A stretch of 64,000 nucleotides of DNA from a bacterium (GTDB lineage: Bacteria; Bacillota; Clostridia; Lachnospirales; Lachnospiraceae): contig JAUNJY010000008.1 in NCBI GenBank assembly GCA_030535455.1, positions 1 to 64,000 on the forward strand, written 5' to 3'. The translations under genes and the position numbers were made by a program. Below the pieces are notes generated by a model that had not been told where the DNA came from, did no database searches, and was given only the letters and a program-made list of their open reading frames with translations. Of the stretch, positions 25,536 to 42,829 are shown piece after piece. The first letter of the stretch is position 1. Every line of letters starts with the position of its first letter.

Positions 25536-26330
25536 TTATACTCCCCAGTCCTTCTTGATCTCATTCAATAATTGCATTTCCTTTGACGTATCAATTCCAG
25601 GATTGGCATCTGGATGAAACTTCTTTGCAAGCACCTTGTAAAACTTTGATAACATATCCTTGTCTTCTTCAGAATAATTTCCCTTGCTTCCAAAGAAATC
25701 CGAAGAGCCCGAGAAATTTCTCCACGCTTCCTTATGCTTCCTTCTGCTATTCTCACTAAACTTTTCTCTCTCCTTGATCTGCTCATGGACCTTATTTAGA
25801 TAATCTGCATCCTTCAGTTCCCCAAACACATTATAGATATGATCATATTTTGTCTGATCAACACCCAGTTCCATGGAAAACTTCTTCTTTGCTTTTTGGT
25901 AAGCTTCTAAAATCTGCTGATTTTTCTTATTTTCTAGGTATTCCTCAGTCTGCCCAAACTCAAAACGTATCTTATCCCTTAGATTTTCTAGCTTTTCTTT
26001 GATTACATCCCAGACAGCCTCTGCAGTTGTGTTCATCTCTTTGGCAATCTGTTCAATCAGACGGTCTCCAATGCAATCCTCAATATTAAAATCTACAAAA
26101 TCATAATAAGTCAATGTTGCAACCGGACACTCTTTTCCATTGTCTTCTACTACGATAATCCGATAGGCCTGCTTATTGGTACGTTCAAAACGTTCAGCGC
26201 TCATTCGGTGTGTATATGTCTTTCCGTGTTCTCCGCCGCTTACCCATTCGAATTCGTCCACGATTATCTTTTTAGGCGCACCTTTACTCCTTACCTGATC
26301 CAATTCAAACTCTTCAATCTTACACTGCAT
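25536..26330 (-). CDS. Protein with a C-terminal DnaJ-type J-domain
   Basis: 264 aa from the ATG at 26330 (GGAAAGGAAG upstream; a start 45 bases earlier lacks one). Residues 1-110 form a mixed alpha/beta region of no known family (KKIIVDEFEWVSGGEHGKTY; AYRIIVVEDNGKECPVATLT). The middle (110-215) is charged and helical. The end, DMLSKFYKVLAKKFHPDANP then EMQLLNEIKKDWGV, matches helix II, the HPD loop and helix III of a J-domain. A J-domain at the C-terminus is unusual. It should stimulate an Hsp70 ATPase. The divergent Hsp70 of 29754-32324 lies 3.4 kb upstream on the same strand and is the natural candidate; that pairing is inference. Confidence 0.75.
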   Translation of the reverse strand: MQCKIEEFELDQVRSKGAPKKIIVDEFEWVSGGEHGKTYTHRMSAERFERTNKQAYRIIVVEDNGKECPVATLTYYDFVDFNIEDCIGDRLIEQIAKEMNTTAEAVWDVIKEKLENLRDKIRFEFGQTEEYLENKKNQQILEAYQKAKKKFSMELGVDQTKYDHIYNVFGELKDADYLNKVHEQIKEREKFSENSRRKHKEAWRNFSGSSDFFGSKGNYSEEDKDMLSKFYKVLAKKFHPDANPGIDTSKEMQLLNEIKKDWGV

Positions 26331-26530
26331 TGCCGCACTTCCTTTCCTCTGCTGCTCACTACTATACTCCCCCAATTCAATAATTTCATTCGAAGAGACT
26401 AGGTTACAGAGACGAAAAATCGTATCTTTTTCAAAGACAATGCAATAAAAATCTTATTTTTCACTTGTATCATTGCAAATAATGCTTTATCATTATGTAA
26501 AAGTACTGACGAAAGGACGTGAACCCATCT

Positions 26531-29712: not shown

Positions 29713-29744
29713 GTAAAAGCGGATATTCGAAAATCCGCTTTTAC
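29713..29744 (-). terminator. Terminator of the Hsp70-like operon
   Basis: Arms GTAAAAGCGGAT (29713-29724) and ATCCGCTTTTAC (29733-29744), 12 of 12, followed on the minus strand by TTTG and T-rich sequence. It comes about ten bases after the Hsp70-like stop. Confidence 0.75.
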
Positions 29745-29753
29745 AATAACTCC

Positions 29754-32324
29754 CTATAATTTTGTCAACTGCTTCTCTGACAGCTTCATCTGCCTCTCTG
29801 CCTCTCTGGCAAGCAAGATGATCTCCTCATCAAATCCATAATGTCTGACCTCTTGCAAGGTCCGCTTTAATGCTAAGTAACAATGCTCCTCCAGGCCATC
29901 CACTGATCCAATCGCTGCAAGCCCCTTAATAATGGTCTTTAGCATGGTCAGATCATTGGAGGTAATACAGCTCTGAATCGAGTCCACTGTATAATTTATA
30001 ACGTTCTCATTCACCAATTCCTTATTTTCCGCAAGACGAAAATACACGGCTTCAAATACCTGGGTGCTGACGGTGGAACATTTCATACTCAAGAATAGAT
30101 TCAAAGTCACCTTGCTAAATGGTGCCAGCTCAAAGATTGCCATGTAGATGCTCTTTTCATAATAGGAAAAGTACCCGGTCTGAAGAATGTTAAGTAAATA
30201 CGTGCTTCCCTCCTGGTCCCATTTTGCAATATAACGGATGGCTTCCTTTAAGACGCTTGCCTCATTTCGAAATCCATAATACATCTGGCTGAAATGCTTC
30301 TTGCACTCATAAAGCAGCGCCACTCTCTCTTCCTTTAAAAATCCATCCGATAACTCAAATGCCACTGCGTACAAATACCCACGATATGGATCATTTAATC
30401 CAAGATAGGACAATTCATTCATGATTGGCCAATAAAAATCCCGCTTGTTTTCAGCACGACGAATGGTCTCAAAGCTCTGTTTCACTTTCATCTTAAATTC
30501 ATATTTTTCTTTTTTATTTGACATATGTACTAACATCTTTAGATTATTCAGCTCACTCTTTGCATTTAACACCTGGTTCTCTACCGTGATAATCTTGGAT
30601 GCCTTAGTCTTAATTTTGTCCGCATTCTTCTTATTTGTATCAATGCTCATAAGGGTGCGGGTCTCAATATGGCCGCTGACAAATGCCTCTAGCTTCATCA
30701 TTCGAAGGTTATCAATGGAGACAATAAACGAGATTTCCGTTCCCGCAGGGTAGACACGGTCAAACGTTACAATTCGATCCGCAATCCTTCGATTCGGCAT
30801 GTTTTTGGTATTGCCCCTTCCAAGGAAAATCTCAACGATCATGGAGTCACTGGTCTTGGCAAGATAGTATTTTTCTGCAATCACTTCAGAACAGTAGGGC
30901 AACTTGGTTCCTGCTTCAATCAGCTTAGAGACATACTCTCCACTGACCCCCAGATTTACCGTATCATTTAAGATGGTCCCCGTCATAAATACAGGCTTGC
31001 TTGGCTTTTCTTCCTCACTTGACTTTGTCACATTGTATTTATGCAGGCAATAATGATAGTACACTGCCCCTCTTGCAACAGACAAATCCGGATCTGCCGT
31101 CACCAACGACTCTAGTCCAAAGAACTTGTCAATTCTCTTCTTAATTGGGAAAAACCTGGTCATTCCGCCATTTAAGATGACTGCGTCAATCTTAACGTCA
31201 CTTCCTGCTTTGGCTAACACATCTAAAATCGGATAAATAATGTTGTTCATTTCCGACTCTTTCATGGAGTCAATCCGCTTAACATCTCCAAGGGATAACG
31301 AGCCCCCCATAAGCGGTTCGATAATTTCTTCTAACTCCTGTATGGTAAGCTCGTCAGAGTAACTATAGCTGTCATATAGATTGATCTCACTGATGTCATA
31401 ATAATACTCATTGTCTAACTTCTTTCCCATCTCTTCTGCATGCCTATAATCATCAGTCATCTCGATCTTGACACGCTCTGCCCTGGTACGAAGCTTGCTC
31501 ATGACTTCTTCCTTCCTCCTGTCATGGATGGAAAGCTTATACATATTCACAAAACGCTTATACATGGCTTTGGCAATCAGTTCATCAAAATTATCGCCGC
31601 CAATCTGAGTGTATCTCGAAATAGCAAGGTCCTCAATATTCATCATGGTACCATTGATATAGCCCACCTTATGGATTGTTACATCTAAAGTGCCCCCTCC
31701 AAGGTCAAACACCAATACATTCTTTGGCGTAGAAAAATCAATAATATCAGAAGGAATTTCACCAAGTTCCTGCATATGCACCAGGTCATAGATTACGGCC
31801 TTTGGCTCATACAATAGGATTTCATGCTCATTATTTACATCGATGCCGGCTAACTTTGCAGCCTGCAGCGTTGCCTGGCACTGGTCCGAATCAAATGATG
31901 CCGGGATGGTGATGATTGCATCCGTAATTTCATCCAAAAATAATCTTGTCTTGGCACTGGTAAGCATGGTTCTTAAAATCTGCGCCGATACCTGACTCGG
32001 TGTCTTATCCTCAATCTCTTCTGCCAGCTTTAGCGGCTCATTCTTTCCCATCTGGGATTTGACTGACTTACATACATAACCATAACGGACGCCATAACGG
32101 CTCTTTGCATAATCACCTACCTCAGGAATAATTTCGTTTGTCCTTGGATCTTTATTATAAAATACTACACTAGGTAAGATTTTTCCTCTTGCTCTTCCTC
32201 CATTTTCAATTTTTCTATCCACTTCTACAATTAAGCATTTTACGGTTTCATTATTGGTAATATTGGCATACGAAATGACAGAATTCGTAGTCCCAAGGTC
32301 AATTCCAAAATAATAATTCTTCAT
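29754..32324 (-). CDS. Divergent Hsp70 with a long helical C-terminal domain
   Basis: 856 aa, about 240 longer than DnaK. The nucleotide-binding domain has the Hsp70 landmarks: GIDLGTTNS (7-15), VFDLGGGTLDV (205-215), IGGDNFDELI (241-250), ILNGGMTRFFPIKKRI (383-398) and ADPDLSVARGAVYY (410-423). A beta-rich substrate-binding-like domain follows (about 445-575: GTKLPYCSEVIAEKYY, YPAGTEISFIV). Residues 590-856 are a helical repeat-like region not found in DnaK. It is the last gene of an operon with a GrpE-like protein (12 bp before) and a beta-CASP-like protein. Presumably a specialised chaperone; the client is unknown but the operon suggests the MBL protein or an RNA/DNA complex. Confidence 0.8.
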   Translation of the reverse strand: MKNYYFGIDLGTTNSVISYANITNNETVKCLIVEVDRKIENGGRARGKILPSVVFYNKDPRTNEIIPEVGDYAKSRYGVRYGYVCKSVKSQMGKNEPLKLAEEIEDKTPSQVSAQILRTMLTSAKTRLFLDEITDAIITIPASFDSDQCQATLQAAKLAGIDVNNEHEILLYEPKAVIYDLVHMQELGEIPSDIIDFSTPKNVLVFDLGGGTLDVTIHKVGYINGTMMNIEDLAISRYTQIGGDNFDELIAKAMYKRFVNMYKLSIHDRRKEEVMSKLRTRAERVKIEMTDDYRHAEEMGKKLDNEYYYDISEINLYDSYSYSDELTIQELEEIIEPLMGGSLSLGDVKRIDSMKESEMNNIIYPILDVLAKAGSDVKIDAVILNGGMTRFFPIKKRIDKFFGLESLVTADPDLSVARGAVYYHYCLHKYNVTKSSEEEKPSKPVFMTGTILNDTVNLGVSGEYVSKLIEAGTKLPYCSEVIAEKYYLAKTSDSMIVEIFLGRGNTKNMPNRRIADRIVTFDRVYPAGTEISFIVSIDNLRMMKLEAFVSGHIETRTLMSIDTNKKNADKIKTKASKIITVENQVLNAKSELNNLKMLVHMSNKKEKYEFKMKVKQSFETIRRAENKRDFYWPIMNELSYLGLNDPYRGYLYAVAFELSDGFLKEERVALLYECKKHFSQMYYGFRNEASVLKEAIRYIAKWDQEGSTYLLNILQTGYFSYYEKSIYMAIFELAPFSKVTLNLFLSMKCSTVSTQVFEAVYFRLAENKELVNENVINYTVDSIQSCITSNDLTMLKTIIKGLAAIGSVDGLEEHCYLALKRTLQEVRHYGFDEEIILLAREAERQMKLSEKQLTKL

Positions 32325-32336
32325 GTTATTCCCTCC

Positions 32337-33452
32337 CTATACCTCTGTTACAGTTGGCAAGGAAATGACTACATCCTGGTATTTCCACCCAGGCTGTGTA
32401 ACCTTAACTTCTTTAACATCATAATCATCAATAAACGGCTCCCCCTGATAGTTCATCAAAGCCACTTCTTCATAGGTTGCCCGAAATGTCCGATTTACTT
32501 TATCAATCGGCTCAATTCCATAGCTATTGATAAATCTGGTAAACTGCTTAAATATAATAGTAAGGGGAACTAGTTCTGACGGTATCTTCGACCGATTTTT
32601 CCTTAGGTTTGTAAGTACCTCCTCCACTACTAACATACTATCTAAGATGTTGCCAAACTCCTTGGAATTCAATGCACTAAAGAACTCACTGACCGCCATA
32701 TTCTTTGCATCTATTGCACTTATTTCTACGCTTTCCTTTAATTCGTCAAATAATGACTGTACCATGTCCAAGGTATTCTTATAGTTTTCTAATTGGAATT
32801 TTAATGTCTCAATTTGCTTTACATGATCTTCAATCCCTTCCGTGTCCTCACTCTGACTGGTAAATTCCAATGCCTTTCTTGTCTTCTCAATTACCTCCTT
32901 GGTTGATTTTTTATACTGGAATCCCATGCTTTTACTTACATCCACAAAGATTGTAGAAAGCATCTTGCTGCAAAATCCCTCTAGAAAGTTTTCAAGGATT
33001 GCAAGCAAATGTTCACTTTTAAACTCCTTTTCAAATACATACAGATACACAAATAGGTATTTTGCCTTAAAATACATCCTCTTTTCTTCAATATCCCGCT
33101 CTACAAGGTTATCAATATAATGCTTCATATAAATGGTGGCCTGGTTCTCCCCATCTAAAAATCCCTTAAAATCCTTAGCCGCACGTTTTACATTGGCTGC
33201 TATGTATCTGCACTTTCCGGGAGTATTCAGATTGACTGCCCGAAGCAGGCTTTCAAACTTATCAAAGGAATAGCCTTTGTTGTATTCTTTAAATGCCTCA
33301 AACTGTTCTGACTTCGTTCCACTGGGAAACTCCATTGCAACCTTCATGGCATACCATTCGTTCTTTTTCTTTTCATCCAGGGTAAGATTTTTTTCCTTAA
33401 TCTTAGCAAACTCTGTCTCGATTACCTTATTATATATATTAAAATATTTCAT
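32337..33452 (-). CDS. GrpE-like protein, putative nucleotide exchange factor of the Hsp70-like protein
   Basis: 371 aa. Residues 1-200 are helical and unfamiliar. 205-260 is a coiled coil. The C-terminal part (about 295-371) reads like GrpE: a helix ending LLxF/FTRFINSYGIEPID, then FRATYEEVALMNY, then VKVTQPGWKYQDVVISLPTV, matching in order GrpE's GVExID, FDPxxHEAV and VQxGYxLxxRVLRPAxVxV. GrpE dimerises by a coiled coil and its beta domain opens the Hsp70 nucleotide cleft. It is adjacent to the Hsp70-like gene (12 bp) and after the MBL gene (20 bp). The match was made by eye; the N-terminal 200 residues make it clearly different from housekeeping GrpE. Confidence 0.65.
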   Translation of the reverse strand: MKYFNIYNKVIETEFAKIKEKNLTLDEKKKNEWYAMKVAMEFPSGTKSEQFEAFKEYNKGYSFDKFESLLRAVNLNTPGKCRYIAANVKRAAKDFKGFLDGENQATIYMKHYIDNLVERDIEEKRMYFKAKYLFVYLYVFEKEFKSEHLLAILENFLEGFCSKMLSTIFVDVSKSMGFQYKKSTKEVIEKTRKALEFTSQSEDTEGIEDHVKQIETLKFQLENYKNTLDMVQSLFDELKESVEISAIDAKNMAVSEFFSALNSKEFGNILDSMLVVEEVLTNLRKNRSKIPSELVPLTIIFKQFTRFINSYGIEPIDKVNRTFRATYEEVALMNYQGEPFIDDYDVKEVKVTQPGWKYQDVVISLPTVTEV

Positions 33453-33472
33453 AGTACCCTCCTAAATCTATG

Positions 33473-34600
33473 CTAATCAAAAGAGTAAACTCTCTTGTCT
33501 CTACACTGAATACACTCACCAAAATATCTTCCCTGAATTTTCAGATCATCTATAAAGCATAACATGTCACTATGAGGTTCCGAGTGAACCACGAAAACTT
33601 TTTTCGGTCCAAATAAATATACTGTATTGATCAGTTCGGCAAAGGATGCGTGTAACGAATACTTATCTACATTGATACATTGATATCCCTCATGCTCCAT
33701 CTGGCTGATTAAGATGTGCCTTCCCTTCGGCCGGTTGACATAGCCTGTAATCTTCTCACTATAGATGCAGTATCCCAGATTGGAAAATCCATCTGCAATC
33801 TGTTCGGAGTCTTTATCCAAATAAATCTTTGTATCTACTTTCATAATCTTTAGGGCATAGAATAAATCCAGATGCTTTGCTATGCTGGTAGACTTTAGCA
33901 GCACATTAGCACCATTTTTAAGTAACTTACGTATCTTTTTATCCAGTTCCTTATAGTTAAAATGATTTTGTACCTTATACCGGTATCCATTGGTTCCGTT
34001 TAAAATCAGGATATCTGGCCGCAGCCCATCAAACTGTGGCTTGTTCATTCCCAGGATGGTCTCAAAACTGAAATCACCGGTATATAGGATGGATTGCTCC
34101 TGTCCCTCTATGTATGTCATGGTTGCTCCTGCCATATGTCCGGCAGGATATAATGTAATTCGAACTCCTTTTCGCTCAATTGGCTTTCGTACGCTTACTT
34201 CTTCAATTCGCTCTAATATTTCTTCCATCTTTAGTAATTTTGCTCTTTTAATTTTTTCATCGTCATAATGGGTAATACATCGTCCAAAGTCTACAAGCTG
34301 CATGCGGATTAGGTCTTTTGTTGTCTTTGATGCAATGATTGTAGCATTTTTTGCTTGGCCGGCAATATAAAGAAGGGATCCGATATGGTCAAAATGCGCA
34401 TGACTTAAGATGATCAGGTCAATCTCATCCAGGCTGTCTACATGGCCTTCATATACAATGGAGGAATAGTCTGGATAGACCTCGGAAATGCCCTTTTTCG
34501 CTCCTGCGTCTAAAATAATCTTAACTCCGGACAAATTAATAAAATAACTGGATACCCCGATATGATTTGCACCCGCAATTGGATAGAGATAGTTTTTCAC
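33473..34600 (-). CDS. Metallo-beta-lactamase-fold protein, beta-CASP (CPSF/RNase J) type
   Basis: 375 aa. MBL fold with metal motif SHAHFDH (H67, H69, D71, H72), H155 in AGHMAGA and D176 in YTGDFS, as in beta-CASP nucleases. The usual EST(Y/F)G after GDF is replaced by LNGTNGYRY; YSLHASFAEL and VHSEPHSDM resemble beta-CASP motifs A-C (S-H-A, then H-G/S-E). Members cut RNA or DNA. It is smaller than RNase J (about 550) and has no KH or RNase J C-terminal domain. It is first in the three-gene operon with the GrpE-like and Hsp70-like genes. It is cytosolic: there is no signal peptide. Intact; GGGAGG before the start at 34600. Confidence 0.78.
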   Translation of the reverse strand: MKNYLYPIAGANHIGVSSYFINLSGVKIILDAGAKKGISEVYPDYSSIVYEGHVDSLDEIDLIILSHAHFDHIGSLLYIAGQAKNATIIASKTTKDLIRMQLVDFGRCITHYDDEKIKRAKLLKMEEILERIEEVSVRKPIERKGVRITLYPAGHMAGATMTYIEGQEQSILYTGDFSFETILGMNKPQFDGLRPDILILNGTNGYRYKVQNHFNYKELDKKIRKLLKNGANVLLKSTSIAKHLDLFYALKIMKVDTKIYLDKDSEQIADGFSNLGYCIYSEKITGYVNRPKGRHILISQMEHEGYQCINVDKYSLHASFAELINTVYLFGPKKVFVVHSEPHSDMLCFIDDLKIQGRYFGECIQCRDKRVYSFD

Positions 34601-34635: not shown

Positions 34636-34653
34636 ATCATACGAAAGTATGAT
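34636..34653. promoter_or_regulatory. Palindromic operator-like site upstream of the MBL-GrpE-Hsp70 operon
   Basis: ATCATAC-GAAA-GTATGAT, 7-base perfect arms, about 36 bases before the start of the first gene. A possible -10 (TAAAAT on the minus strand) overlaps its left side. It is a plausible repressor site. CIRCE, the usual Hsp70 operator, does not match. Confidence 0.45.
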
Positions 34654-34667
34654 ATTTTGACGAAACT

Positions 34668-34811: not shown

Positions 34812-35489
34812 CTATATATTTTCAATCTGCCAGTCAATTGGTTCTACTCCATGTTCCTGTAAGAACTCATTTGTCTTGCTAAATGGCTTGCTTCCGAAAA
34901 ATCCTCGATAGGAAGACAATGGACTTGGATGTGGTGCTTCCAAAATCAAGTGCTTTGGATTGGTTAACATCTTCTTTTTCGACTGTGCCGGTTTTCCCCA
35001 AAGGATACAGACGATTGGACGGTCTTTGGCATTTACTGCATGGATGACCGCATCGGTAAACTGCTCCCAGCCGTGTCCTCGATGGGAATTGGCCTCATGG
35101 GCACGAACCGTTAATACGGTATTTAATAATAACACGCCCTGATCGGCCCACTTTTTCAAATAACCGTTGTTGGGTATATAGCACCCTAAATCATCATGTA
35201 ATTCCTTATAAATATTCACCAAGGATGGTGGTAACTGTTGCTGTTCCGGAAGGACGGAAAAACTCAGTCCATGCGCCTGATGTGCATTATGGTATGGATC
35301 CTGCCCTAAGATCAATACTTTCACCTTGCTTAATGGCGTAAAATGAAAGGCATTGAAGATATCCTCTGCAGGCGGATAAATTACATGATTTTTATATTCT
35401 TCATTTACAAACTTGTATAGCTCTGCATAGTAAGGCTTATGAAACTCCTCTTCTATTGCATGTCTCCAGTCATTTTTAATAATTTCCAT
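34812..35489 (-). CDS. ung: Uracil-DNA glycosylase
   Basis: 225 aa, family 1 length. It removes uracil from DNA at the first step of base-excision repair. Water-activating motif [18 protein letters not shown] (Asp and Tyr in place), [20 protein letters not shown], and the [13 protein letters not shown] loop carrying the minor-groove His. It is between the jetC gene (about 110 bp upstream) and its own terminator. The start at 35489 has GGTAAGAT-type weak ribosome sequence (AGGTAAGATAG). Intact and typical. Confidence 0.96.
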
Positions 35490-35599
35490 CTATCTTACCT
35501 CGATTATCGCTTTTTCTAAATTATAGTTCAACACGTATCAATTGCAAATACTTCTAGCAGGGGAAGGTCACGCCTCCCCCTTACTAACAGTATGATAGA

Positions 35600-38500
35600 T
35601 TACTCTGATTTTATCCCATCATCCAACAACTCATGGAACTCTGCCTTTTCAAATGGCTGGATCGAAATATAGGATTTATTCGGATTTGCAAATACAAATG
35701 TCTTATCGACACTTTCCACATAGTTTTGCATCTTATCATTGGTTGCACTGATAATCGCCTGGAAGCCAAGCTTACGGATTAAGTCCACGCAGCTTGCCAC
35801 CTTTTCTCCATCCATCTTTGAAAATGCTTCATCTAAGACTACCAGTCTAGGCGTCATACGTCTTCTTACATTTTTACGAAGGCTGATCTTATATACTTCG
35901 GCAAAACTTGCAAGCAAGGCAACATATAATGGATTTTGACCTTCCCCACCAGAGTTCTTGGTTAACATCTTGCTCAGTCTCATCGGAGCCATGCCTTCAA
36001 TGATCTGTTCCATATCAAAGGATAGGTAGGTTCTATAATCGGCATATTTTTCGATATTTCTTCTTGCCTCTTCTAACTGCTCTTTATCACAATCTTCCGG
36101 CGGCATAAAGATATCGATCAACTCGTTAATCAAGTCATTGTACTTGTCTTCATGATTTGCAGAGAATAAATCGATCTGGTTGTCCATATGGTTAGAAAGA
36201 CGCTTTGGATTGATTTCTAAGTTTTCATCCATAAACATAGTATAGAACTTGCCATCTTCCCCTTTGTTCTTCTCAATTACAAATCGATATTTTTCCTTAC
36301 CAAAGTCTGTTTTCTTTAAAATCTGATTTAAATCTTCTTTTTGCTGTAATGCTTCTTTGATAGCATCTCGAATTTTGTAGACAAAGTCTGTCTTAAAGTG
36401 GTCAACCGCTTTTTTCGCCTGCTCTCCTGCCTTATTCATAAATTCAGACAGCTTTTCGCTGGATAACTTCACATAAAGATTTTCATATGCTGTATTATCT
36501 TTGGCAGTAATGGAGAACCCTCTAAATCCGTATTGGTTCAGGTATTGTTCTCTTTCCATGGTCAATGCAGTAAATGCCGTTTCATTGATATCGGCTTCTT
36601 TCTTAATCAGGCCTTCTAACATGCTTCTAACACGTTCTAAGGAATGAACTTCGTTCTTCTTCATAAATGCCTGATATTCTTTATTCTTTTCTGCATTATG
36701 CTCAAATGTCTTATTTGTCTCATTGAATTGTTCCATCAAAATGACAAATTGTGTCTTTAAGCTTTCTAGCTCACGTTCCTTCGTCTGCTTATCAGACATG
36801 GCAGAGGATAATTTCTTGGAATACGTATCCACTTCTTCTTGAAGGCGAACTTCTTCCTCTTTCCATAAGGACAAGTCTTTTGTCTTAAGCTCGTTGATCT
36901 TCGCATTGATTTCTGTAATCTTTGTCTCTAAGGTTGTAATCTTATGGATATCTTCTAAATATCCCATATAATATGCGTTGTCCTTATCTAAATATTCCAA
37001 TGCCAGTACGGAGCTGATTTTCTCAATGCCTTCTTCCATTGGCGCAAGTCTTTCCTGCATTTTTTCATACTGCCCAGTCAGCATCTTGAGTCTTCTTTGG
37101 ATAGAAGACTGGCCGATATAGGCAAACTTGTGATAATGCTTCGGATCAATATGCTTGATGCTGTAGTTATGGTAAAGCACGCACTCTTTTGTAATTCCGC
37201 TTCTCTGGTTACGGAGTTCTTCCATGGTTTCACATTTGATTACAGAACCCATTAAGAAGTCCACATATGCCTGCACATAAGGAAGTTCAGTTACAATCTC
37301 CTCACTAAGTGCATGTTTTTGAGGCTCTCTCTTATTATCCATTACTTTTTCGGTATCGATAATTACTATTTTATGATAACGTCGGGCATCCATAGTTTCA
37401 TAAATGGCCATCGCCTGTTTTACAAAGGCAGGTTCCACGCATAAGGCAAGTTTGTTATTGCTCATAAAGCCTTCAACTGCATTTAGCCATGCTTCTTCCT
37501 TCACATCGATCAGATCGGCTAAGATATTTACTTCCACATCGCTTCCCGTCTGTTTCTTAAGTTCTGCTGCAATGAATTCCTTTGCTTCTACCAACTCTTT
37601 CTGATATGCCTTCTTACCACTTTGAAGGGTTGTCAGTTCTTTCTTTGTCTCTTTGCACTCTTCTTTTAGCTGGTTGTAAGCTGCTTTCTTCTCATCAATC
37701 AAGTTCAGCTGTTTCTTACGGATATCTGCAATTGCAGTACGGATCTTATCTAGCTCTTCTTCCGTTACTGTTCCAGCTTCCACTCGTTCAAATAGTGGAA
37801 GCAGATCAGATACATCAATTCCGTCTACAAACTTCCAGAACATAAGCCCTTGGGCAATGCGGTCATATTCTAACTTACTTTTATGATAGCGTGACACAAG
37901 TTCGCTTAAGGATTTTTCTTCAGCTGCCAAATGGTCAAATCCGCTGTTTTTGATGGCTGTCTTAACATTGACCTGTTCTTCCTGTAAGCTCTTTACCTTT
38001 TGTTCAAAGTCCACAACGTTGGTTCCAAGCTCTTTTAAATCCGTTTGATATGCTGCCTGTTTTGTCTGGTTTGTATTTAATGCATCATTGAGGATGTCTA
38101 ATTTTACTTGCTGTAATGAATAGTTATACTGTGCTGCTGCACGGTTGGACTTGTCATACACGCTGTATTTCTCATTGATCTTCTCTAAATACTCGATTTC
38201 CTGTTTTGTATCTTCTAACTTACGTTTTAAACGAACATACTGGATTACGCTTTCCTGCATGTCTTCGATATGGATGTCTTTCTCCACGCAGATAAATTCC
38301 TTTACGAAATCTTCAAGCTTGGTATCCATACGGAAACTGATTGCCTTCTTAAATAGCATCGGGAACTTTCGTTCATCCAGTCCTCCAAGGTAAGTCTCGT
38401 ATAAACGGGTTCTGAACTTATCGTTGGTTCTGCTGAACCACCAGTCTTCCTGTTCGTACTTTCTAGATAAATATTCTTTGACCTGGTTGCAAGTCATTGT

Positions 38501-38950
38501 CTTCTTTTCATAACGGTAGCCGTTCTTTAACAGGCCTCCTCTATGCCAGAAGAATAGGCGGTCTGTATTATTGGTTGACACTTCTACGTCAAAGCATACC
38601 CCAACTGTCTGATACTCGCCGGTAGACGTATTTAAAAACTCAATGGCAATGGTTGTGGAAAAGTTCTGATTTCTAAGGTAGGTTGCCTCACCGTTTTCCC
38701 CAACATTGTTCATACCGCGAAGGTATTCAATAAGCGTACGGTTGGAATCGTCCTTTGCCGCCTTATTAAAGAAGCTTCGTCCATCGGTATCTGCGTATAA
38801 CAATAACTGCATGGCATCTAGCACAGTAGACTTACCGGAACCGGAATGTCCTGTGAAGAAGTTAATATCCTTATTAAATGATAAAATCTGCTCGTTGATA
38901 TAATGCCAGTTATTTAATGCCATACGAGTCATCAATAATCGATTATTCAT
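35600..38950 (-). CDS. jetC: Wadjet-type SMC/MukB-like ATPase JetC
   Basis: 1116 aa SMC-like motor. N-terminal half-ATPase: Walker A GHSGSGKST (34-42), then LDAMQLLLYADT. Long coiled coils (about 240-400, 640-830) flank a hinge-like region (about 450-640). C-terminal half: signature NSGGEGQNPLYVALLASF and Walker B LVVLDEAFSKMD, with the D-loop. In Wadjet the JetABC condensin extrudes plasmid DNA loops and JetD cuts it. Here jetC is third in jetA-jetB-jetC, overlapping jetB by 8 bp, and the next gene downstream is ung, not a toprim nuclease gene. Confidence 0.9.
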   Translation of the reverse strand: MNNRLLMTRMALNNWHYINEQILSFNKDINFFTGHSGSGKSTVLDAMQLLLYADTDGRSFFNKAAKDDSNRTLIEYLRGMNNVGENGEATYLRNQNFSTTIAIEFLNTSTGEYQTVGVCFDVEVSTNNTDRLFFWHRGGLLKNGYRYEKKTMTCNQVKEYLSRKYEQEDWWFSRTNDKFRTRLYETYLGGLDERKFPMLFKKAISFRMDTKLEDFVKEFICVEKDIHIEDMQESVIQYVRLKRKLEDTKQEIEYLEKINEKYSVYDKSNRAAAQYNYSLQQVKLDILNDALNTNQTKQAAYQTDLKELGTNVVDFEQKVKSLQEEQVNVKTAIKNSGFDHLAAEEKSLSELVSRYHKSKLEYDRIAQGLMFWKFVDGIDVSDLLPLFERVEAGTVTEEELDKIRTAIADIRKKQLNLIDEKKAAYNQLKEECKETKKELTTLQSGKKAYQKELVEAKEFIAAELKKQTGSDVEVNILADLIDVKEEAWLNAVEGFMSNNKLALCVEPAFVKQAMAIYETMDARRYHKIVIIDTEKVMDNKREPQKHALSEEIVTELPYVQAYVDFLMGSVIKCETMEELRNQRSGITKECVLYHNYSIKHIDPKHYHKFAYIGQSSIQRRLKMLTGQYEKMQERLAPMEEGIEKISSVLALEYLDKDNAYYMGYLEDIHKITTLETKITEINAKINELKTKDLSLWKEEEVRLQEEVDTYSKKLSSAMSDKQTKERELESLKTQFVILMEQFNETNKTFEHNAEKNKEYQAFMKKNEVHSLERVRSMLEGLIKKEADINETAFTALTMEREQYLNQYGFRGFSITAKDNTAYENLYVKLSSEKLSEFMNKAGEQAKKAVDHFKTDFVYKIRDAIKEALQQKEDLNQILKKTDFGKEKYRFVIEKNKGEDGKFYTMFMDENLEINPKRLSNHMDNQIDLFSANHEDKYNDLINELIDIFMPPEDCDKEQLEEARRNIEKYADYRTYLSFDMEQIIEGMAPMRLSKMLTKNSGGEGQNPLYVALLASFAEVYKISLRKNVRRRMTPRLVVLDEAFSKMDGEKVASCVDLIRKLGFQAIISATNDKMQNYVESVDKTFVFANPNKSYISIQPFEKAEFHELLDDGIKSE

Positions 38951-39554
38951 TTTCTTCCTCCTCTTCTGTTCCGTACTGTTCTAAGATTGCTGCCACATCT
39001 TCCGGATTTAACACCATATGGATGGTTGGATAAATGATTAACTTTGTCTCAGGTGTTACCTCAGCCATTGGATCTAATACTTCGATCACCTGGTAGCGCT
39101 TTAATACGGCTAATGTTCTCTTTAAATCGGTTGGGCTGATGGATTTATTCTCCCACACATGGAACAGCTGTATCTTTTCGTAAACTTCCTGTAATGTTAC
39201 GTAAATATGGATGGAATTGGATGCTTCCCCCATCTTCTCATCAAATAATAATTTTAATAAGAGTACGAACACGCTTGTCAGCTTGCTAAATTTCTCTCCT
39301 TGCACGGTACTGGATTTTAATCCGATAATTCCGTATTGGGTATTTTCGATCACATCAATTCTTGCAATCTTAAAATAATCCTTGATAAAGTCAAGGTGCT
39401 TTTCACACACTCGGTATGCTTTATTTAAATGATAACGGGCATTTCGCTTATCATATTTCTTTTCTAATACATAGGTCTGACTCTGCAATAACTGTATTGC
39501 ATCGCTTAGCTCTTCTTGCTCTTCTTGCATCAGCGTACTATAATATCCTGTCAT
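38943..39554 (-). CDS. jetB: Wadjet-type MukE/MksE-like subunit JetB (DUF4194)
   Basis: 203 aa. Winged-helix subunit of the SMC complex, DUF4194 type: EEQEELSDAIQLLQSQTYVL at the start, YFKIARIDVIENTQYGIIGL, FVLLLKLLFDEK, SPTDLKRTLAVLKRYQVIEV, then YPTIHMVLNPEDVAAILEQY. It binds the kleisin JetA. The ATG at 39554 has AAGGAGG six bases upstream; an in-frame start nine codons earlier lies in jetA and lacks one. It overlaps jetA by 17 bp and jetC by 8 bp, so translation is coupled and stoichiometry probably fixed. Confidence 0.85.
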   Translation of the reverse strand: MTGYYSTLMQEEQEELSDAIQLLQSQTYVLEKKYDKRNARYHLNKAYRVCEKHLDFIKDYFKIARIDVIENTQYGIIGLKSSTVQGEKFSKLTSVFVLLLKLLFDEKMGEASNSIHIYVTLQEVYEKIQLFHVWENKSISPTDLKRTLAVLKRYQVIEVLDPMAEVTPETKLIIYPTIHMVLNPEDVAAILEQYGTEEEEENE

Positions 39555-40935
39555 CTGCTTCCTCCTTAGGTCTATTGTCACGTTTTCTAAATGTCATACG
39601 AGGATAGCTGTAACTTTCTGTCGTAATCAGTTCTCCTGTTGCCTCAACCGTATATGGGCTCTTCTTACGAAGAGAATGGTCATAGGCTAAGATTAAAAGT
39701 TCAAACTCCTCATCGCTTGTAATTGGTGTCTTTGCCGTATCAAACTGTCCCTCACTCATATTGTCTGCAACAAAGATTTCAATCTGTTCCTTACTAAAAC
39801 GATGTTTCTTACGATTTGCTAGCAATATTTCTTCTTTCGTAAGCATTTTCGCTTCTTCTAAGACTTCTACCGTTTCCTCAAATGATTTTCGTCTTCCTCG
39901 TTTTGTATACATCAGGTCCTTGCCAAACATGGTATGGTCATGAATTTTGATTTTCTTTGCAATCTCGCCTAATAACTGCTCTTGATTTTGATTACTAAAT
40001 AAGTTAAGTACATTGACCACGCGGCCTGTCATATTCTCGTCATTATTTAATAGATATTCTAATCTTCTTACCGTCGCACGGACATATTTTGTATGTTCAG
40101 AGTCAATATAGGCAATTCTTCGTTCCATATTTCCAATTCCACGTTCCACTGCATCGATCATCTCGCTGATCTGCTCTTCCACATCTCCCTCGTGGGTTCC
40201 TTCCAAAATCATTTTTCTCTTAAGAAGGTTCAGTCTCTCATCGTCCTCCTGAATGGCACGAAGCAATGTCTTAATATCATTTTTATAGATATAGAAGTTG
40301 TCACTTGTCTTAAGAAGGCTGTATTTACGATCTACAATGGACTCCACATAGCCATAAAGATGCTCTTCCAACAGATTTTCATACGAGTCTTTCTGTAACA
40401 GGGACTCAAAAAACTTATCCATGTTATGCAACATATCCTGAAGGGCACGGTTTAAGTTGCTTGTATTGACCATGGCTGTCTTTAATAACTCAATCCCCGC
40501 CTTCTTGTCATGATAGAAGGAATAAATATTGGTATAGACATTCTGGATGTAAATATCGGTTTCGTTCTGTCCAGGTTCCTTGATCTTGATCATCGCTTCA
40601 ATAAAAATAGAGGCATAATCAGGAATGACAACATTTGTCTTAAACGTCTGATAATCCTCTACCTTGCGAAGCCATTTAAAATACAATAATTTTGCAAAAA
40701 TCTGGGTCGCTACCGGTTCCGTCTTTTCCGCAACCATTTCTTCCTCTTCCGAAAGATCAAAGATACGGTTGTTAAAACGATCATGTAGCAGCTGGATGCA
40801 TGTCTCTTTTGATAAGAAATAATCATTATAGAGATATTCCTCGTAAATCAACAATAATGCTTCCATGTATATATATCGATTTTTCGATTGAAATAAACCG
40901 AAAAACTGTTCTGGTATCTCTTTAAGTCGTTCCAT
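39538..40935 (-). CDS. jetA: Wadjet-type kleisin-like subunit JetA (DUF5716)
   Basis: 465 aa, DUF5716/JetA-like. Opens MERLKEIPEQFFGLFQSKNR then YIYMEALLLIYEEYLYNDYF; middle helical with repeated heptads (KISE, RRIAYIDSEHTKYVRATVRR); C-terminal winged-helix-like part (EEILLANRKKHRFSKEQIEI; TSDEEFELLILAYDHSL) and a basic tail. It acts as the kleisin-like bridge between the JetC heads and carries JetB. It is first in the operon; promoter at 40967-40994. Family assignment from memory of the DUF5716 sequence pattern and, strongly, from the gene order. Confidence 0.82.
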   Translation of the reverse strand: MERLKEIPEQFFGLFQSKNRYIYMEALLLIYEEYLYNDYFLSKETCIQLLHDRFNNRIFDLSEEEEMVAEKTEPVATQIFAKLLYFKWLRKVEDYQTFKTNVVIPDYASIFIEAMIKIKEPGQNETDIYIQNVYTNIYSFYHDKKAGIELLKTAMVNTSNLNRALQDMLHNMDKFFESLLQKDSYENLLEEHLYGYVESIVDRKYSLLKTSDNFYIYKNDIKTLLRAIQEDDERLNLLKRKMILEGTHEGDVEEQISEMIDAVERGIGNMERRIAYIDSEHTKYVRATVRRLEYLLNNDENMTGRVVNVLNLFSNQNQEQLLGEIAKKIKIHDHTMFGKDLMYTKRGRRKSFEETVEVLEEAKMLTKEEILLANRKKHRFSKEQIEIFVADNMSEGQFDTAKTPITSDEEFELLILAYDHSLRKKSPYTVEATGELITTESYSYPRMTFRKRDNRPKEEADDRIL

Positions 40936-41878: not shown

Positions 41879-42829
41879 TTAAATTTCTACCCGATTGTTC
41901 TTTCTGCGATATGTATAGACCTTATCAGACAGAACTTCATCTACTGGAACCTGAGAACTGTTTACCTCACACACCATATTCCTTAGCTCCTCTTTACTTA
42001 AACTTTCGTCATAAGGAACTAAAATCACTTCATGAATACTGGATGGCAGGATGAATAAATCGCTCTCCAGCCGGTTGGCAAATTCCTTGATGCCATCCTG
42101 ATAAAGCATTGCAGTTGCACCATTTATGCCAGTCTCATTGCTTAATATGTACATTTTAGGAGCAGACTCATCCGGAAGCATCTGGCTCATCATCTGACGA
42201 AATATTTCATCGCCTTCCCCATCCCCTACCGGGCATAACTCATAGAAGTCTCGTTTCATTAACTCATAAATCACATCTTCCATGGAAGAAATCTTGATTG
42301 GAAATAACCTGGTGGTATTGGCAATAGCAAGCTTCATCAGCTCTTTTACGGTAACATCAAAGCATTCTGCATGCTCATTGGTAATTCGGATGGTTCCAAT
42401 CCCATCCTCATCCTGTTTTACAAGACAGTGGAATGTAATGGCCAGATCTAAAAATCTTACAAAGGGAACCTCTTCTAATAACTCTGCATTCTTATTATAA
42501 TTTACCAGACGGTAGATGATCTTATCCTTGATCTGCTCAAAGGAAAACTCAAACTGCTCATACTCTGGAGCCTGGCTGCGCTTGCTTTCCTGATAGGTGC
42601 TGATTATGTCTTCTGCAATCGTATCCACGCTCTCACCTTCCATATATCTGCTGTAATAGGAATTCAGATAAATATTTGGTGAAATCGTATCTCCATCCTT
42701 AAACAACACAATCCCATCAAGAACAACGGAATTATTTTTCTTAATACGATTTACCTTTACCTCATACTCCTCGTCTACCTTCACTTTAATACATTCTCTT
42801 ACGTTATCGACAAATTGATTATACTCCAT
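41879..42829 (-). CDS. DUF5688-family protein
   Basis: 316 aa, soluble, acidic. MEYNQFVDNVRECIKVKVDE, RIKKNNSVVLDGIVLFKDGD, ISPNIYLNSYYSRYMEGESV and YILSNETGINGATAMLYQDG match the DUF5688 pattern common in Clostridia, often on mobile or accessory DNA. Role unknown. The late segment ILPSSIHEVILVPYDESLSK resembles the same family's C-terminal half. Intact; GGAGAGG before the ATG at 42829. It is not a JetD: no toprim motifs. Confidence 0.78.
   Translation of the reverse strand: MEYNQFVDNVRECIKVKVDEEYEVKVNRIKKNNSVVLDGIVLFKDGDTISPNIYLNSYYSRYMEGESVDTIAEDIISTYQESKRSQAPEYEQFEFSFEQIKDKIIYRLVNYNKNAELLEEVPFVRFLDLAITFHCLVKQDEDGIGTIRITNEHAECFDVTVKELMKLAIANTTRLFPIKISSMEDVIYELMKRDFYELCPVGDGEGDEIFRQMMSQMLPDESAPKMYILSNETGINGATAMLYQDGIKEFANRLESDLFILPSSIHEVILVPYDESLSKEELRNMVCEVNSSQVPVDEVLSDKVYTYRRKNNRVEI

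Follow-up and report, generated by a model that had tools for sequence, protein, structure and literature searches.

A recurrent gene unit of Lachnospiraceae and Spirochaetes encoding a divergent Hsp70, a GrpE-like protein and a CPSF-like metallo-beta-lactamase protein

Introduction

What is the task of an Hsp70 that is encoded beside a GrpE-like protein of its own and a relative of the eukaryotic RNA-processing nucleases? The question is raised by three adjacent genes in a Lachnospiraceae genome (assembly GCA_030535455.1, contig JAUNJY010000008.1), of which we analysed the first 64,000 nucleotides, here called the window. The genes, denoted below as the trio, encode a metallo-beta-lactamase (MBL) protein of the CPSF73/INTS11 branch, a GrpE-like protein and a divergent Hsp70. 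We find that the trio behaves as a single unit in both inheritance and transfer. Whether the three products work together as a dedicated Hsp70 machine, with the MBL tethered to Hsp70 by the GrpE-like protein and with RNA or ribonucleoproteins (RNPs) as possible targets, we judge to be about evenly balanced: gene evidence supports the coupling of the three proteins, and RNA or an RNP is the target we infer.

Results

A compact unit on the minus strand

The trio is transcribed on the minus strand in the order MBL (33473-34600; 375 amino acids (aa)), GrpE-like (32337-33452; 371 aa; Pfam GrpE 9.4e-8) and Hsp70 (29754-32324; 856 aa; Pfam HSP70 1.6e-39), with intergenic gaps of 20 and 12 base pairs (bp). 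These coordinates, lengths and gaps agree with a preliminary description of the locus made from the sequence alone. The genes probably constitute a single three-gene transcription unit, a reading that rests on their spacing because the promoter-like and terminator-like classes of signals do not rise above chance. A promoter-like site lies 5′ of the MBL gene (34636-34663, minus strand; 17 of its class found, 17.2 expected), and a terminator-like hairpin, its stem 12 pairs long, begins ten bases past the Hsp70 stop codon (29713-29744, minus strand; 4 found, 2.9 expected). A CIRCE heat-shock operator was not found within 3 mismatches anywhere in the window.

The three genes recur together in two phyla

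Using the GrpE-like protein and its profile as queries, we searched relatives of the window genome and a collection of 84,980 species genomes, the latter yielding 16 loci. Matches were present in 9 of 397 genomes of the window's family (window genome included) and in 9 of 195 genomes of the Treponema family. Across 398 genomes of the window's phylum the window's own protein was the only match, and across 247 genomes of the Treponema phylum only the query genome matched. A further match in genome G081 (E 2e-4) fell within another gene (453 aa) and was discarded as fortuitous. Merging duplicate loci (L028 with L016, L029 with L021, L030 with L051, L031 with L020, L032 with L018, L033 with L053, L057 with L036, L058 with L040, L059 with L038, L060 with L037, L061 with L042, L062 with L039 and L065 with L041) left 24 loci in two phyla, 15 from Lachnospiraceae plus Epulopiscium and 9 from Spirochaetes.

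The GrpE-like gene is followed by the Hsp70 gene at all 24 loci, and the MBL gene lies directly upstream of it at all 23 loci readable past GrpE, L021 being at a contig end. The arrangement first noticed in the window is thus found in other genomes, another phylum included. Intergenic gaps mostly range from −14 to 31 bp, with single cases up to 159 and 334 bp, and at locus L056, in one genome, MBL and GrpE-like protein are fused as one open reading frame of 794 residues. The flanking genes vary between loci and are common only to close relatives. The closest relative of the window genome, G001, holds two copies of the trio, one syntenic with the window (L016) and one diverged (L020, contig C256). 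Relatives of the trio were absent from viral contigs, plasmids and phages, the plasmids and phages having been queried with the window protein only, and carriage on such elements was set aside.

Because DnaK and GrpE are present separately in most of the trio genomes searched, the trio is an addition to the canonical chaperones. Of 11 such genomes, 10 gave a canonical GrpE match at E ≤ 2e-40; DnaK was detected in 6 of 7 genomes (E ≤ 1e-50), G453 being the exception in each case. In the window genome a contig end interrupts the canonical dnaK gene, and the trio GrpE-like protein is the only Pfam GrpE match passing the search.

Parallel descent and purifying selection

The residue and profile analyses below used 19 of 23 MBL sequences (without L034, truncated; L037, a near-copy of L036; and L063 and L064, both cut), 21 of 24 GrpE-like sequences (without L037, L063 and L064) and an alignment of 19 of 24 Hsp70 sequences (without L016, L037, L038, L063 and L064); for Hsp70 the tree, R167/D148 and periodicity analyses used 18 sequences. 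Pairwise distances in the three protein trees, taken over 18 loci, are correlated at 0.946, 0.960 and 0.943, values not reached in any of 2000 permutations, and the pairs of trees have 9, 12 and 9 of 15 bipartitions in common; much of this agreement is expected from common descent alone.

The ratio of nonsynonymous to synonymous substitution rates (dN/dS) between the window genome and its congener G001 is 0.026, 0.026 and 0.022 for the trio genes, next to 0.030 for ung, 0.069 for JetA, 0.041 for JetC and 0.019 for DegV, all rough values since dS is near 1. The trio genes are kept working under strong purifying selection, similar to that on ung.

The MBL protein has a full metal centre and lacks the motif-A acid

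The window MBL matches Pfam Lactamase_B_6 (9.2e-16) and RMMBL (8.2e-5; 23.0 bits, cut-off 21.6). A profile of the 19 MBL sequences compared with solved structures finds INTS11 (3.4e-53) and CPSF73 (5.6e-49) best, followed by Cas14 (1.7e-40), then archaeal CPSF and TTHA0252 (1.4e-29), with RNase J far weaker (1.5e-12). All 19 sequences keep the metal ligands of MBL motifs 1-4 (D31, H67, H69, D71, H72, H155 and D176) and the histidines of motifs B and C (H317 and H339) unchanged. The acid of beta-CASP motif A is absent from every one of them, and the position of the catalytic INTS11 Glu203 is occupied by N in 7 and C in 12. In the window this residue is N201, an AAC codon at 33998-34000 on the minus strand. 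The substitution E203Q yields a catalytically dead INTS11 according to the available text of two sources (PMC7980224, PMC8565846).

Non-trio relatives from the same genome family provide the comparison. ESTYG or ETTYG is intact in all 16 of the relatives examined, out of 20 found; three of the others had no locus, and the fourth (L080) is split by stops, its fragment showing ESTYG. Two long Lachnospiraceae CPSF-like MBLs, L105 (1257-4031; 924 aa) and L106 (8452-11004; 850 aa), carry large extra C-terminal regions, keep ESTYG/ETTYG and have no Hsp70 linkage. The span from motif A to motif B is 116-130 residues in the trio MBLs, 189 in INTS11 and 195-198 in comparators, the last measured in the 3 of 6 where the search pattern found motif B. 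The trio beta-CASP segment is therefore about 70 residues short and does not amount to a full-length cap. The GMxxGG motif is not diagnostic, as the pattern is absent in 19/19 trio MBLs and also missed 14 of 16 comparators.

By its residues and profile matches, the protein is an MBL of the CPSF type whose beta-CASP part is shortened and lacks the catalytic acid, and that it acts as a classical beta-CASP nuclease is doubtful. The compact MBL with an intact HxHxDH motif reported in the preliminary description is borne out; the active beta-CASP nuclease that the description implied is set back by the loss of motif A and the short segment.

The second protein is GrpE-like in its C-terminal part

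Homology of the C-terminal part (residues 200-371; 32340-32855, minus strand) to GrpE is moderately supported by sequence comparison. In the window protein, residues 200-365 align to positions 6-158 of the 165-position Pfam GrpE profile with 32.3 bits against a cut-off of 25.8, and 8 of the 21 members match this profile at E ≤ 0.01. Profile-profile comparison with 14 canonical GrpE proteins of relatives gives, at a relaxed setting, a collinear match to the C-terminal half over 143 columns (E 4.4e-5, probability 69%); the whole protein at the default setting gives a probability of 45% over 53 columns. The conserved final segment aligns with the end of canonical GrpE, and the crude periodicity of this part runs from helix to strand. 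The last 116 residues alone match Pfam GrpE at 4.3e-4, under the cut-off. The GrpE-like C-terminus proposed earlier thus has moderate support from sequence: the window protein as a whole passes the Pfam cut-off, its last 116 residues taken alone do not, and no PDB match was found at E ≤ 0.01. The N-terminal 199 residues (32856-33452, minus strand) have a crude helix-like periodicity and no family match below E 0.1, in line with the earlier description of the N-terminal 200 residues as unknown.

The Hsp70 keeps its nucleotide site and lacks residues of the J-domain contact

The nucleotide-binding domain occupies about residues 1-430 (31035-32324, minus strand). The 19 aligned Hsp70 sequences all keep K89, E173, T212 and the glycine-rich motifs, as expected from the preliminary account of a divergent Hsp70 with an intact nucleotide site. 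K89, E173 and T212 appear to correspond to DnaK K70, E171 and T199, with K89 and T212 equated by motif reading. At the column of DnaK Arg167 all 18 sequences have N, or I or V in the ungapped register, and Arg in neither; an insertion of 4 or 8 residues lies beside this position. The DnaK D148 position holds S, A or T in 18/18. The available text of two papers assigns DnaK Arg167 a role in J-domain action (PMC7289447, PMC8215388).

Past residue 430 the protein has no Pfam match. A crude periodicity measure suggests strands as far as about residue 580 and helix beyond 600, and residues ~446-580 (30585-30989, minus strand) may be a diverged substrate-binding beta domain, with a weak collinear match to that of DnaK (probability 1.6%, E 0.03). 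The C-terminal tail of ~270 residues (29754-30572, minus strand) is helix-like and matches no family, and the DnaK lid is not recognisable.

At 25536-26375 the window encodes a protein of 279 aa that carries a J-domain-like HPD segment near its C-terminus. It was rejected as a fourth part of the unit, its full-length relatives occurring only in G000, G001 and G003 of the 22 genomes searched, all within the genus; in G003 the relative lies about 46 kb from the trio, and the other hits are short J-domain matches. In Robinsoniella a DnaJ_C-type J-protein (L035, 315-1310) stands directly upstream of the trio, the sole such case noticed.

Neighbouring genes and the defence question

PADLOC models gave no match for the Hsp70 or the GrpE-like protein, and for the MBL only E 0.0096 and 0.013. 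At 16 loci we scanned 30 flanking proteins, of which 7 have a PADLOC match at 1e-5: a restriction methylase and enzyme at L018, the only recognisable system, and SbcD-like (L034), LmuB-like (L038), PDC-M43B (L053), ABC-type ATPase (L054) and RecD (L055) proteins. A defence island was rejected on these grounds, the matches being few and mostly generic, and a defence role of the trio is weakly supported.

The window itself holds Wadjet-like JetA, JetB and JetC genes, then ung (34812-40935). The Wadjet genes lie 1 kb upstream of the trio, beyond ung, and accompany it only in the window and L016 among the loci read. A JetD gene was not noticed directly beside JetA-JetB-JetC, the upstream gene (41879-42829) encoding a DUF5688 protein. 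In Epulopiscium the trio is succeeded by two genes, one SbcD-like and one large and SbcC-like (L034, 4659-8920).

Comparison with known systems

About 14% of GAP1-N2 systems contain HSP70 and GrpE, according to the available text of Kaur et al. 2020 (PMC7159879), and the window genome has such a locus of its own. On its contig C126 (L022, 1000-11421), matches to GAP1-N2 (1.8e-12) and DO-GTPase2 (1.9e-8) accompany two Hsp70s, a GrpE (1e-8) and a 720-aa protein, which fits the HSP70/GrpE theme as far as that text presents it. The view that dedicated chaperone pairs outside dnaK-grpE are rare, put forward in the preliminary description, is tempered by both observations. The trio resembles the theme in placing Hsp70 and GrpE outside dnaK-grpE in a predicted multi-gene machine, and differs from it in that the GAP1, double-GTPase and other parts described there are not among the window trio neighbours scanned, and that the available description of the theme mentions no MBL (PMC7159879).

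CoCoNuTs hold Hsp70-like proteins with HEAT-like repeats, and in their CnuD, which is predicted to act on RNA, an Hsp70-like ATPase precedes a domain of helical repeats, an arrangement that recalls the trio Hsp70. In the available text of that study (PMC11090510) the Walker A-like motifs of CnuD are degenerate, whereas the nucleotide motifs of the trio Hsp70 are kept. Neither McrB nor McrC was noticed as a neighbour of the trio.

The MBL has its best NCBIfam matches in Type VII CRISPR Cas14 (9.4e-27) and archaeal aCPSF1 (3.4e-23), with scores far under the curated cut-offs (93.6 vs 800 and 81.8 vs 580.2 bits) and alignments limited to residues 10-262 and 9-253. INTS11 and CPSF73 are its best matches among solved structures and have the same metal ligands and the same histidines in motifs B and C; the MBL differs from them in lacking the Glu203 acid, in a beta-CASP part ~70 residues shorter and in having a chaperone pair as its partner. 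The Hsp70 ATPase site and the GrpE-like partner recall DnaK-GrpE-DnaJ, in contrast to which the trio has no R167, D148 or recognisable lid and no J-protein. In the literature searched, no paper joined 'beta-CASP' and 'GrpE', and the trio is not described among the matches listed.

Discussion

We propose that the GrpE-like protein would serve as the nucleotide-exchange factor of the trio Hsp70 and also as an adaptor, its GrpE part docking on Hsp70 and its N-terminal helical part holding the MBL; the latter assignment is made because MBL and GrpE-like protein form one chain in L056. Eukaryotic BAG proteins bring Hsp70 to a particular place via a nucleotide-exchange domain, and the adaptor may work in much the same way. 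Because the full metal centre is kept while the catalytic acid and part of the cap are lost, the MBL is more likely to recognise a substrate, or to hydrolyse it by other chemistry, and Hsp70 would then remodel that substrate with ATP. Given the INTS11/CPSF73 ancestry and the RMMBL segment, the most likely substrate would be RNA, an RNP, or a protein that binds either. Since DnaK R167 and D148 are not kept, the trigger of the trio Hsp70 is probably not that of DnaK; in place of a canonical J-protein, the MBL or the substrate of the MBL may provide it. In its fullest form, a new ATP-driven machine in which a BAG-like GrpE adaptor couples an acid-stripped sensor of the INTS11/CPSF73 branch to a J-independent Hsp70, with RNA or RNP recognition driving remodelling, the proposal is tentative and rather improbable as a whole.

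Several observations weigh against this proposal. The evidence for a physical complex is at the level of genes, not of proteins, and both the RNA target and the comparison with BAG proteins are our interpretation. The L056 fusion is a single case from a draft assembly, where a misassembly or an erroneous indel could have produced it. At E 0.01, 13 of 21 GrpE-like members fall below Pfam detection, and no PDB chain matches the GrpE-like protein at E ≤ 0.01. Many MBL hydrolases do without motif A, and the trio MBL may for that reason have full activity as a different type of enzyme. J-independence is only suggested, because an Arg that could substitute for R167 occurs in the adjacent insert in the Lachnospiraceae-2/Spirochaete clade, and because the two Hsp70s of the window genome's GAP1-N2 locus also lack R167, so that the loss is not special to the trio.

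Other readings of the same genes can be weighed against the proposed machine. The Hsp70 and GrpE-like protein might be a maturation pair that folds or metallates the MBL, the real product then being an ordinary hydrolase of a small molecule, peptide or nucleotide. HscA, a dedicated Hsp70 for one metal-cluster client, IscU, offers a precedent, and the metal ligands complete in 19/19 sequences and the strong purifying selection on all three genes agree with it. To our knowledge MBL proteins do not normally require a private chaperone, metabolic genes are not consistent neighbours of the trio, and fusion of the client to the exchange factor, instead of to Hsp70, is left unexplained; we hold this reading to be unlikely.

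That the chaperone pair restrains an active nuclease MBL until infection, whereupon RNA or DNA is cut in defence or abortive infection, we regard as quite unlikely. Such a nuclease would have to act without the motif-A acid and with a short beta-CASP segment, only the L018 pair among the 7 PADLOC-matching flanking proteins is a recognisable system (the other five matches being generic), relatives are absent from the viral contigs, plasmids and phages searched, and purifying selection is as strong as on ung. The patchy spread within both families and across phyla speaks for it, as do the Wadjet genes near the window trio, the restriction-modification pair after the trio in L018, and, in the available texts, the predicted conflict systems that include an HSP70-GrpE pair (PMC7159879) and the CoCoNuTs, whose Hsp70-like proteins carry helical repeats (PMC11090510). 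The preliminary guess of one complex, an RNA/DNA processing or defence machine, gains as regards a shared complex from the constant order at 23/23 loci, the parallel trees and the L056 fusion; defence is weakly supported. We find least probable a stress or damage sensor in which the MBL binds an RNA or nucleotide signal uncut and gates Hsp70, with regulation of another protein as the output. A metal centre retained after loss of the catalytic acid suits a binding module and the altered J-contact residues leave room for another trigger; against this, the trio has no constant companion gene for a regulator or an output, and the window lacks a CIRCE operator within the mismatch limit given above.

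This work adds a recurrent, transferred gene unit, found neither in PADLOC nor among the literature matches listed, and the trio suggests an undescribed protein machine. If the proposed machine is real, it would be a bacterial Hsp70 system whose exchange factor, not a J-protein, chooses its job, with, as the partner, a disarmed relative of the nuclease responsible in eukaryotes for transcription termination and RNA 3′-end processing. It would then offer a small, expressible system for testing J-independent control of Hsp70 and the function of a beta-CASP scaffold that lacks its catalytic acid.

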